Assembly (NCBI GenBank): GCA_017466965.1
Contig: JAFTTD010000382.1
Coordinates: 1-17,273, forward strand
Reading direction: 5' to 3'
Origin: Bacteroidaceae bacterium
GTDB taxonomy: Bacteria > Bacteroidota > Bacteroidia > Bacteroidales > Bacteroidaceae
Length of the DNA stretch: 17,273 nucleotides
Shown here: piece after piece, positions 3,940-11,197 of the stretch
Numbering within the stretch: position 1 is the first letter of the stretch
Layout: each line of letters opens with the position of its first letter
Position numbers and translations under genes: made by a program
The notes under the pieces: model-generated
Databases searched by the model: none
Told to the model about the DNA's origin: nothing
Seen by the model: only the letters and a program-made list of their open reading frames with translations

Positions 3940-5496
3940 TTAAATGTCATTTGAATCGTCAAACTCTTCCTTGTTGGTTGTAAAATAATGTCCATCTTCT
4001 GTTGTCAGCATATAAATAGTATGCTCACCGAAAGGTTCATACCATTCATATTTGTCGTTGGGTCTCCAGAAGAAACGGATTTCTCTTATACCTTGTGACA
4101 TTTCAACAGCGTTATTCCATCTAATCCACTGTTCACTGTACCACCAATACCAACCAGGTTTTAAATTATTGTAAGTAATAAGTTCATTTATTTCATCAGA
4201 AATCATCTTGCCATTCTTAAATATTGCATATCCTGTTTGTCCTGAAATGACTTTATCTGTGGTATTTGTCACATATATAGTATATGTTACCTTAGGGGTT
4301 ACAATTGAATTATTTTGTTCTGTAATTTCGATTCTCCCAACATGAGGAATCAACTTATAATCTTTTTCGCTTTCATCCTCTTCTATTGGTTTAATATTGA
4401 TTATAGCCTGCTGATCATAATTGTAGTCAAATCCATTAGGAGTAAGTGCATTGAAATCAAAATATCCATCACACAAACTACCCCATCCCCAATTGATATG
4501 ATAGCGTCCGTCTTGATCTACGCCTGAGCAAATAAAAAAATGTCCTTCTTCACCATTTTTATCGTTACCACAATACAATACAGGTTGTCCTTCTGATAAA
4601 TTTTTATATATCATATTATTCCATGCATCATTAGAATAATAGTTTCTATCAACAAACTGTATTTGTGGTGAATAATCAAAATGTCTCAATAAAGCTGTTA
4701 CAGCGTTATATGTATAAGCAGAAGTACTATTAACACCATAATGAACATTGCAAGCATATCCTACATCTTTCATTAGTTGCGCTACGGCATTGGCTTCTGC
4801 TGTTGTGTAAGAATATGAATAATAACTGTTGCGCATAATATTCCACTGATAATCTTTTTCAAGATTTGTGACAACTTTGGTGCTGTCACCATCGTTGAGT
4901 GTAGCAAAGCATGTACCATGTCCTTTCTTTGGCCATTCGTGGTATTTCATTAATTGAGCAACGGCTGTTGCAACACAACCCGTATAAGTTGATTTTCCGT
5001 TTATTTTCGGACAGTATTTGTTGTATGGATGTGTTTGGTTCCATGTTGTTCGTATTAAAGGGGAAATAGGTATAACATCTTCTTCATATTGAGTCTTAGG
5101 TTTACCTGTTCCTTTCCATATTTGTTGTATGTATTGGCTATATGATGACAGGTATTTGGCTAATGCTGTTGGTATATCATGACTTAAGAACTTGGAAGAT
5201 GAAGAATACCCAACAATGGGTGTTACTTCGTCATCACCTGCAACAATAACAAAGCCAATAGAATCAGTAGGAGAAAAGACATAAAACTCTGATGATTTAT
5301 GTTTATTCCTTGTTTTTATAGGTGATTCATAAACTAGCATCATTTTATTATTGGATGCCTTAATTGTTTTTTTTGTTTTAGATATAGTATTAAAAAAATT
5401 TTCGGCAGTTTTTCTTCCTGTTTCAACATCTATAGGTTTAGCTAATGTTGTTAAGGCTATACCAAATGAAAAAAATGTAAAAAATAATCTATTCAT
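3940..5496 (-). CDS. secreted C10-family cysteine protease (streptopain/interpain-like), lacking its sorting domain
   Basis: A 518-residue protein with a signal peptide (MNRLFFTFFSFGIALTTLAK), then a propeptide of the Spi type (roughly residues 20-140, with FVIVAGDDEVTPIVGYS). The C10 catalytic domain has the nucleophile Cys174 in YTGCVATAVAQ, His319 in EEGHFFICSG and the HINWGWGS motif at 333-340. A beta-rich domain follows from about residue 375. Family members are secreted zymogens that mature by removing the propeptide and degrade host or dietary proteins. In T9SS organisms they usually carry a C-terminal sorting domain; here that domain is present but lies behind an in-frame TAA (3940-3942). 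As read, the protein could reach the periplasm by its signal peptide but would lack the signal for outer-membrane export. The gene stands alone, with about 400 bp of A/T-rich upstream DNA. Confidence 0.92.
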   Translation of the reverse strand: MNRLFFTFFSFGIALTTLAKPIDVETGRKTAENFFNTISKTKKTIKASNNKMMLVYESPIKTRNKHKSSEFYVFSPTDSIGFVIVAGDDEVTPIVGYSSSSKFLSHDIPTALAKYLSSYSQYIQQIWKGTGKPKTQYEEDVIPISPLIRTTWNQTHPYNKYCPKINGKSTYTGCVATAVAQLMKYHEWPKKGHGTCFATLNDGDSTKVVTNLEKDYQWNIMRNSYYSYSYTTAEANAVAQLMKDVGYACNVHYGVNSTSAYTYNAVTALLRHFDYSPQIQFVDRNYYSNDAWNNMIYKNLSEGQPVLYCGNDKNGEEGHFFICSGVDQDGRYHINWGWGSLCDGYFDFNALTPNGFDYNYDQQAIINIKPIEEDESEKDYKLIPHVGRIEITEQNNSIVTPKVTYTIYVTNTTDKVISGQTGYAIFKNGKMISDEINELITYNNLKPGWYWWYSEQWIRWNNAVEMSQGIREIRFFWRPNDKYEWYEPFGEHTIYMLTTEDGHYFTTNKEEFDDSNDI

Positions 5497-7735: not shown

Positions 7736-9490
7736 CTACTTCAGATAACTGTCAATGATTTCTTGTGCATTTTCATCTCCAAGCTCCTTTGCACGTTCAA
7801 GGTTTTGTTTTGCTTCTTCCTTGTTGCCCTTTTGCAGTTGTGCATAGCCGAGAATGCGGTAAGCAGAAGCAAAATTAGGATCGAGCCTGATGCAATTCTG
7901 TGCAGATTTGATACATTCTTCCATGTTTCCAACTCTGAGCATCAGTGCACCTCGTTCTATGTAATATAGTGCTTCGTTAGGTGCTATTGCTATCGCCATG
8001 TTTATGTCGTCAAGAGCTTGCTGGTACATTCTTGCTTTTATCTCTAACTGTGAGCGGTCGTAATAGAAAGATGCGTTAACCTTGCTGTGGTTCAGTGTGC
8101 AGAACTGGTTGTAGTCCAACACGGCTTCGCGATACCTGCCTGCTTGTTCGTAGAGCTTGCCTCGATGGAGAACGTACGATGCGGCTTCAGCTGGCAGGCG
8201 AGTGCCAAACATGGCTATTGCGCTATCAAGAAGTTCTATCTGAACAGATAGCGAATCACCTTTGTCTGCATGAGCCAATGCTGAGGCGTAAAGAAGTGCC
8301 GGACTGCGCAGTTCGCCTTTGTTAAGTTCGTTGTATAAAGCTATCGCCTCGTCAAAATTTTTGTTGGATAACAGGATACGGCTTTTCTGCAGCATAAAGT
8401 CAAGATACCTTGCTTTTTTGTTCTCATTAGTACTGTCGGCAACAGCAGCCTCCTGTATGTTTGGTGTTGATTGTTTTTCAATTTCTATTGCAGTGTTGAT
8501 ATAATTCAGAGCCACTTCAAAATTCCATTTTTCGTATTTGTGTTCTGGCTGATACACCAATTTGGTATGTATGGCTTTAGCTACGTTTGCATTTGCAAGT
8601 GCTTTGTCTTTTGACAGTCTCAGATATTCCTGCAAATCTACTTCTGCTTCATTGAATTTAAGCATATCCATAAGAGGTGTTGCGCGTCTCAGATAGCCTT
8701 CCGGATTTTCAGGATAAGTTGATATAAAGAGGTTCAGCATGTCAATGTATTCTTCGTTGTCAGTATTTCGTGATTTGAAGTAAAGATATACCAATGCTTC
8801 TTCCATGCTTTCAGGCAATGCTTTGTAAATGTGAATTTTGTCAAGAGCCAATGCTGCAGAACCCGAAGCTATGGCTTCTATATTCAGCTCGTTCTTGAAA
8901 TTAATATCAACAGCGTATCCGTTTTCGCCGAATGGCGGCTGCATTACGCCTACAACTTTACCATCCTCTGTCATTATTGGTGAACCGACGTATTTGCTTT
9001 CTGGTTTTTGTGCGAATGTGTAGTAAACATATTTGCTCTGAACAGATGATGTGTCAGTAACTGTTACAAAAGGGCAAGTACGAATTTTTTCCTTTGAAAA
9101 GGTCAATACATATAAGGTTTCATCTTTAGATGCTGGAGTTTCAGATATTTGAAGCATGGGATTCTTATTAACATCAACAGTGAACCTGACCAATGAATAT
9201 GTGTCGTCAGCTCCGAGAATCCTTTTCACTTCATGTTTCTTGCCGTCCATTCCTATAGCCACAGCACTGTAGGCATTGTTGAATAGTGAATAGTCGGCAA
9301 TGGCTTCACCGTTTTCACCAATATAAAACCCTGTGCCTGAGTTCAGCATATTACCGTCTTTGTCGTAGCTAAAAAGCGAAAAGATGGCTTTCTGCATCTT
9401 TCCTACCCATTTTGGCGCAGTCTTCATTTGCGCACAAGCAGTCATCATTGTCATCAGACAGACTGCAAAAGAAAATAAATATCTTTTCAT
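7736..9490 (-). CDS. lipoprotein with degenerate trypsin-like domain and TPR repeats
   Basis: A 584-residue protein with signal MKRYLFSFAVCLMTMMTAC and a lipobox MTAC giving Cys19 as the lipid site. Residues about 35-200 look like an S1C (HtrA-type) fold: SGTGFYIGENGEAIADYSLF matches the GSGF...H region, ADDTYSLVRF the Asp region and YVGSPIMTEDGKVVGV the GNSGGP...G region. None of the three catalytic residues is apparent: the His slot reads ADYSLF, and the Ser slot in GNSGGP is a Val (KYVGSP, 167-171). From about residue 225 to the end there are TPR-type helical repeats (for example AIYNELNKGELRSPALLYASALAHADKG). It is probably a scaffold in the envelope rather than an active protease. It starts 21 nt after recN and ends the tightly spaced gene row. 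No gene name is known to me. Confidence 0.8.
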   Translation of the reverse strand: MKRYLFSFAVCLMTMMTACAQMKTAPKWVGKMQKAIFSLFSYDKDGNMLNSGTGFYIGENGEAIADYSLFNNAYSAVAIGMDGKKHEVKRILGADDTYSLVRFTVDVNKNPMLQISETPASKDETLYVLTFSKEKIRTCPFVTVTDTSSVQSKYVYYTFAQKPESKYVGSPIMTEDGKVVGVMQPPFGENGYAVDINFKNELNIEAIASGSAALALDKIHIYKALPESMEEALVYLYFKSRNTDNEEYIDMLNLFISTYPENPEGYLRRATPLMDMLKFNEAEVDLQEYLRLSKDKALANANVAKAIHTKLVYQPEHKYEKWNFEVALNYINTAIEIEKQSTPNIQEAAVADSTNENKKARYLDFMLQKSRILLSNKNFDEAIALYNELNKGELRSPALLYASALAHADKGDSLSVQIELLDSAIAMFGTRLPAEAASYVLHRGKLYEQAGRYREAVLDYNQFCTLNHSKVNASFYYDRSQLEIKARMYQQALDDINMAIAIAPNEALYYIERGALMLRVGNMEECIKSAQNCIRLDPNFASAYRILGYAQLQKGNKEEAKQNLERAKELGDENAQEIIDSYLK

Positions 9491-9511: not shown

Positions 9512-10339
9512 TTAACTCATTTCGTTGGCAGACAATAATTCGTTGGCATTTTTGATTGCCGCTTCAGTTAATGTTTCTCCACTGAGCATATTAGCCAGTT
9601 CTTCAACCCTCTGCTCATGGTTCAGTTCAACGATATGGCTTGTAGTTGATTCATCTCCGTCTGTTTTGTAAACCTTGTAATGAGTGTTACCGAGAGCGGC
9701 AATCTGTGGCAGGTGGGTGATGCTTATCACCTGTCTGTCGTTTCTTCCCATATCCTTCATTATGCGTGCCATTTTTTCGGCTATACCGCCTGACACACCT
9801 GTATCTATTTCATCAAAAATAATTGTAGGAAGCTTCACTGCGCCTGCAATCATTGACTTCAATGATAACATCACTCTTGCAATTTCACCCCCCGAAGCTA
9901 CTTGAGCTACATTCTGTAAAACCCCGTTCTTGTTTGCGGAGAATAAGAAGTTAACCTTGTCAGCGCCGTAAGCATTATATGAATCAATTTTTCCTCGAGA
10001 AAGAATCTCAACTTTGAAACGGACGTTAGGCATTCCTAAAGGGGCAAGACTGCTGACCATGTATTCCTCCACCTTTTTTGTGGCGGTTGTTCGTTTGCTA
10101 GTTAGAATACTGGCAGCTTGAATTACATTCTTTTCTGCTTCTGAACATTTTTTCTTCAGCTGTTCAATGTTCTCGTCGCTGTTATCTATCAAAGCCAGCC
10201 GTTCTTCAAGGTCGTTCTGGATTTTCAAGAGTTCATCGACACTGCTGACATGATGTTTCTTTTCAAGTGAGTAGATGAGATTCAGTCTTTCATTGACTTC
10301 ATCAAGTCTCATTGGATTATAATCAACAGATTCAGCCAA
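9512..10339 (-). CDS. recN: RecN C-terminal half (second coiled coil and ATPase head lobe 2)
   Basis: The open frame begins after the TGA at 10340-10342 with a TTG at 10339; the first ATG is at 10312 (MRLDEVNERL), giving 266 residues. It holds a coiled coil (about 15-90), the ABC signature ASGGEIARVML (148-158), Walker B with D-loop TIIFDEIDTGVSGG (172-185) and the switch histidine in THLPQIAA (208-215). There is no clear ribosome binding site before either start, but Bacteroidetes rarely use strong ones. Translation by restart is possible but unproven. Confidence 0.65.
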   Translation of the reverse strand: MAESVDYNPMRLDEVNERLNLIYSLEKKHHVSSVDELLKIQNDLEERLALIDNSDENIEQLKKKCSEAEKNVIQAASILTSKRTTATKKVEEYMVSSLAPLGMPNVRFKVEILSRGKIDSYNAYGADKVNFLFSANKNGVLQNVAQVASGGEIARVMLSLKSMIAGAVKLPTIIFDEIDTGVSGGIAEKMARIMKDMGRNDRQVISITHLPQIAALGNTHYKVYKTDGDESTTSHIVELNHEQRVEELANMLSGETLTEAAIKNANELLSANEMS

Positions 10340-10369
10340 TCATTCCAGTTAATCGTCAATATCCTTCAG

Positions 10370-11197
10370 TTAAATGTAGCATGATTCTATCCTTGAAACC
10401 AGCTCGCTTGCCGGAGCAAACATATTGCACACATTCCCAAGGATTCCTGAACCTGTTTTCAAGTTCAGCAACGTGTTGTTGTCTCCATCCGAAGCTATTG
10501 AGTCATGTGCCTTGTATAATGCTGTTTTTATATCTTCGGCGTGAGAAAGTATTTCTGCTTCATTTTCCAGTTCCGATTGCTCGTTCTCTTTGAGTAATGC
10601 CTCTGCCAGTTGGTTTGCCTGGAATCTCATGTATTCTTCTTCATCTCTGCCTTTGCGAGCTTCTTCCTCCGCACGTTCCAGTTCTTTGCACAGCGATTTG
10701 TAGTCTTGCAAATGTTTCTGATATAAGGCCAGGTCTTCTTTGCATCCGCCAATGATGTCAAGAATACCAATGAGGAAATCTTCCTTGTTTAGTAATAAGT
10801 TCTGATGCTGAGAATGAACATCAAGCAGTTTCTCGCCTATATCCTTAAGCATGGTCAATGATGCTGGGGTGTCGTTAATAAACGCCCTGCTCTTGCCTGT
10901 AGCCGAGAGTTCACGCCTTACAATACATTCTTTGCCGTCAAAATCAAGTTCGTTTTCTTCAAAGAAATGTTCCAGTCCATATTGTTCCACATTGAATACT
11001 GCTTCAATAATGCATTTGCTTGCACCATGCTTAATGGATTTAGAGTCTGCTCTTTGTCCTAAAAGCAGACCTATGGCACCAAGGATAATGGATTTTCCGG
11101 CACCGGTTTCACCTGTGATAACAGAAAACCCTTTATGCAGATTTATGCTGAGTTTCTCAATAAGGGCATAATTTTCTATGTAAAGCGACTTTATCAT
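10370..11197 (-). CDS. recN: RecN N-terminal half (ATPase head lobe 1 and first coiled coil)
   Basis: 275 residues starting MIKSLYIENYALIEKL. Walker A is GETGAGKS at 29-36 and the Q-loop region is DVHSQHQNLL near 126. A charged coiled coil follows at about 160-225, and the piece stops at ESCYI in the hinge region. If translated alone it has half of the ATP site and would need the C-terminal piece to form a working head. Confidence 0.75.
   Translation of the reverse strand: MIKSLYIENYALIEKLSINLHKGFSVITGETGAGKSIILGAIGLLLGQRADSKSIKHGASKCIIEAVFNVEQYGLEHFFEENELDFDGKECIVRRELSATGKSRAFINDTPASLTMLKDIGEKLLDVHSQHQNLLLNKEDFLIGILDIIGGCKEDLALYQKHLQDYKSLCKELERAEEEARKGRDEEEYMRFQANQLAEALLKENEQSELENEAEILSHAEDIKTALYKAHDSIASDGDNNTLLNLKTGSGILGNVCNMFAPASELVSRIESCYI

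Follow-up and report, generated by a model that had tools for sequence, protein, structure and literature searches.

The window analysed here, a stretch of 17,273 nucleotides from a Bacteroidaceae bacterium, carries on its minus strand a recN reading frame of 561 codons plus a terminal TAA (9512..11197), interrupted at codons 276, 283 and 286. On translation of this strand the three interrupting codons are TAA (10372-10370), TAA (10351-10349) and TGA (10342-10340), and beyond them the frame is closed solely by its terminal TAA, codon 562 (9514-9512). Translation confirms the preliminary description of the locus, which had reported three same-frame stops between two open halves and no other internal stop. 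The first half (10370..11197, minus strand), defined by its open reading frame and a profile match, comprises 275 codons and a stop. The second (9512..10339, minus strand) has 275 codons counted from a TTG that stands right after the last stop, and its first ATG, at 10312, comes after an A+T-rich stretch. GETGAGKS is present in the translation of the first half, and SGGE, IIFDEID and ITH in that of the second. We take these motifs to be the P-loop, the signature, Walker B and the switch His, as the preliminary description had placed them. The gene that follows, encoding a trypsin-like and TPR protein (7736..9490, minus strand), has a relative at 99% identity, P0242, and served as a control. 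Elsewhere, the window contains tandem genes for related DUF4595 proteins with nearly the same C-terminal end (2-691 and 752-1771, the second just under the cut-off), and a gene (3940-5496) whose product belongs to the Peptidase C10 family and carries a Spi protease inhibitor domain.

Each half alone matched the RecN profile TIGR00634, at profile positions 1-252 and 294-562, with scores of 198.3 and 243.6 bits that both lie under the cut-off of 407.85. When the stops were read as X, the whole frame reached 453.3 bits, above that cut-off, over positions 1-562. A second RecN model, NF008121 (cut-off 418), was not reached by the window (394.9), nor by its uninterrupted relative P0002 (398.9). In each of the remaining five frames of the recN span there are between 21 and 46 stops, indicating that the recN frame was probably under coding constraint until very recently, and may still be. 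No frameshift occurs in the frame. With its three stops, the sequence as given does not encode the two head halves and the coiled coil between them as one uninterrupted chain.

The preliminary description had proposed comparing recN between close strains. The nearest relative found, P0002, is an uninterrupted RecN of 561 residues with 98% identity over its full length, and the next two, P0003 (95%) and P0004 (85%), are likewise uninterrupted, so that the stops are not shared by any of the three. P0003, encoded on a contig of 5395 bases, differs from P0002 at 17 of its first 35 residues and at only 4 of the other 526; this contig is probably chimeric, joined at the conserved P-loop. The window differs from P0002 at 10 of 561 residues; codons 276-286 account for four of these differences, and six lie outside. 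In these 11 codons P0002, P0003 and P0004 agree with one another and the window deviates at four positions: the three stops and a missense change at codon 281, which lies in the same stretch (10340..10372, minus strand) and was invisible to the earlier reading from sequence only. When 46 relatives were aligned (P0002 plus 45 chosen from 120 listed), Glu was seen to occupy position 276 in 45 and position 283 in 42, and Ala position 281 in 39; position 286, that of the third stop, is variable. Two of the three stops thus fall on conserved residues.

The stops are clustered and not scattered, as had been noted, and their clustering exceeds chance expectation. In post hoc tests, 435 of 500,000 draws of three random single-step nonsense changes had all three inside 11 codons, and random placement brought at least four of ten differences within 11 codons in 611 of 200,000 trials. 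The four differences are also of one kind. With mutation classes derived from residue differences to P0002, so that silent changes are unseen and multi-step codon changes are possible, all four fit one base step, G:C to T:A, compared with none of the six differences elsewhere in recN (five transitions and one A:T to T:A). The Fisher probability for this contrast is 1 in 210, in a comparison that is post hoc and based on small numbers. The six differences in the rest of the gene look like natural variation. Of the possible G:C to T:A changes in recN, 103 of 695 create a stop, compared with 240 of the 5022 single changes of every class; since this class is richer in stop outcomes, a burst of such errors would yield stops readily.

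These observations bear on the proposal, made in the preliminary description, that the short link between two translated halves had been free to gather stops. From a freely evolving link a mixed spectrum including transitions would be expected, and there is none among the four changes. The changes belong to a single transversion class, sit at a site predicted to be helical and strike two conserved residues, all of which argues against that proposal.

The neighbouring gene was the control. Its protein differs from P0242 at 3 of 572 aligned residues, and all three differences are of the A<->C/G<->T class, to which the four changes of the recN cluster also belong (4/4 in the cluster, 3/3 in the next gene, 0/6 in the rest of recN). 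The residue that the window has at position 40 does not occur in any of 12 aligned relatives. At residue 449, however, the odd one is P0242 (beside P0243) and not the window, and the difference at residue 163 can be assigned neither to the window nor to P0242. This pattern suggests that contigs of this kind may contain sequence errors, and that both the window and its relative are affected. According to a review, A<->C/G<->T is by far the commonest class of Illumina substitution error (PMC4719071), and for MiSeq, C to A and G to T are described as leading the replacements of C and G in the last 50 bases of reads (PMC4381044).

We therefore favour a local error in the assembled sequence as the source of the three recN stops, with a probability of roughly 0.72; of the explanations named in the preliminary description, where it came third, it fits best. 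According to this explanation, the reads behind the stretch 10342-10372 would have been few or poor, and the consensus would have taken up four substitutions of the commonest Illumina type, three of which created stops. The gene in the cell would then be an ordinary recN encoding one 561-residue RecN, an SMC-like ATPase used in double-strand-break repair. The poor read support, the Illumina platform and the wholeness of the gene in the cell are what we infer. The uninterrupted relatives, the single mutation class and its match to the leading Illumina and MiSeq errors all favour a local error, as do the conserved Glu residues, the differences in the next gene with its residue 40 unlike all 12 relatives, and the ease with which G:C to T:A changes yield stops in recN. 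Against it, four changes lie within 31 bases and none of this class is among the six others, so an unusually bad spot is needed. The evidence from the next gene is likewise weakened by residues 449 and 163, and the third stop, at a variable position, says little on its own. Inverted repeats have been linked to Illumina errors in the review cited above (PMC4719071), but none was found within 10250-10460.

A real and very recent cluster of mutations could also have inactivated recN, the halves being intact for lack of time to decay. Such a cluster could come from error-prone synthesis or from one mutational event where the DNA was single-stranded and damaged, and the one class and tight spacing of the changes suit a single event. 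8-oxoguanine is reported to give G to T (PMC11666792), and apart from the cluster the two halves have hardly changed. A local event leaves the differences of the error-prone type in the next gene unexplained, though, and interrupted recN genes are rare in the family, as set out below. Nor does the window hold a donor copy of the altered stretch. The fresh pseudogene of the preliminary description ranks second, with a low probability. Two related candidates were rejected. A decaying pseudogene would not agree with a frame that has no frameshift or scattered nonsense and only six residue differences to P0002 outside the cluster. As for a gene-conversion donor inside the window, 24 bases taken from the altered stretch have a single occurrence there with up to 3 mismatches allowed.

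The rarity of interrupted recN genes was assessed in 399 genomes of the family, of which 374 gave a recN match and 25 did not. Among the 150 rows listed from these matches, there was no true internal stop in recN; stop flags were raised in five, and all five mark the normal gene end. This absence favours a local error over a recent mutation cluster in the window. In the genus of the best matches, that of G001, all three genomes searched have a whole recN at 68-69% identity. Nine genomes with weak or double matches were searched again; two of them, G073 and G396, had already appeared in the 150 rows. Six of these are whole at the break site, two (G268 and G293) are frame-broken elsewhere, and in G306 only the first 166 residues are present, the gene being cut at the contig end. 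The recN of G268 (L039, L042) changes frame between residues 376 and 386 and is an interrupted copy of a different kind; that of G293 (L038, L044) has a stop at residue 63 and a shift of frame somewhere from residue 57 to 70. Genome contigs gave four further relatives, at 56-66% protein identity, and a DNA search of the 399 family genomes gave, among the matches listed, two nearly full-length ones at 65-66%. The viral contigs searched yielded no relatives.

With these data in mind, one may consider the idea for which the preliminary description mostly argued, that of a natural two-piece RecN. Here the second half would be re-initiated at the TTG at 10339 or the ATG at 10312, and the two chains would pair along the coiled coil. 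Both halves are indeed open and keep their motifs, and of the two candidate starts the TTG stands right after the last stop and the ATG behind the A+T-rich stretch. The three closest relatives found are single uninterrupted proteins, however, and the methionine encoded at 10312 (Met296) is already present in P0002, P0003 and P0004. The ATG therefore did not arise with a split, and it gives no sign of an adapted start for a second chain. The region 10200-10500 holds no terminator-like site and one promoter-like match, on the plus strand, where shuffled sequences give a mean of 0.7.

The position of the break speaks in the same direction. In RecN the centre of the protein is described as a coiled coil, flanked by globular ends that carry Walker A and Walker B (PMC6856136), so that a cut here parts the two ATPase halves. 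In one predicted model of P0002 (mean pLDDT 87.1, pTM 0.66, about 91 over residues 271-300) residues 263-290 form a helix and 291-294 a loop, and all three stops lie inside the helix. The preliminary description had placed the break in the hinge region, and it does fall in the middle helical part of the protein; in this model it lies inside the helix, however, and not in the loop that follows. For a break that leaves two chains able to fold, the loop would be the likelier site.

Partial relatives give this idea some encouragement. A search with the second half returned 4481 protein matches, of which 120 were listed and placed. The partial relatives among these 120 begin at scattered points over residues 60 to 300, with 16 starting at 261-298, near the break. 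One, P0125, is a partial RecN of 272 residues that begins at P0002 residue 284, in a cluster whose longest contig has 47,095 bases; another, P0122, has 278 residues, lies on a contig of 3101 bases and begins at residue 298. The starts of these two proteins may reflect contig ends or real splits. No partial C-terminal relative among the 120 listed exceeds 69% identity, though, and the spread of starts is what contig ends would give. Among the titles listed in a literature search, none was on a split RecN. The four changes, moreover, are of a single class and not a neutral mix, and we consider a natural two-piece RecN very improbable. Equally slight is the chance that one recent cluster of mutations gave rise to a real two-chain RecN whose second chain re-initiates directly behind the last stop.

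It could also be imagined that the stop codons are read as amino acids in this organism, since the closest relatives have sense codons at these positions. Two different stop codons would then need to be read, although recN itself ends at TAA (9514-9512), and the cluster also contains a missense change. Such recoding is extremely improbable. In order of likelihood, a local error thus comes first, followed by a fresh nonsense cluster; a split RecN is unlikely, and recoding more so.

The recN of the window is very probably an ordinary gene. The case mainly carries a caution: when stops of a single transversion class crowd together in a gene that is intact elsewhere, they speak for a fault of the sequence and not for biology. 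Real stops would make the strain a natural recN mutant or, with lower probability, the carrier of a two-chain SMC-like protein. A two-chain RecN, if true, would provide a neat test of the need of RecN for a continuous coiled coil.

Compared with known systems, the locus is like RecN as represented by TIGR00634 and by the structure 4ad8 (DNA repair protein RecN), in that profile positions 1-562 are covered once the stops are read through as X, and the uninterrupted relative P0002 has sequence matches to both 4ad8 and 4aby. What sets the window apart from the RecN of TIGR00634 is codons 276-286, with their three in-frame stops and a missense change. These changes are unlike Illumina-type substitution errors in their density, four within 31 bases being more than scattered errors would give, and like them in kind, all four local differences belonging to the commonest error class.
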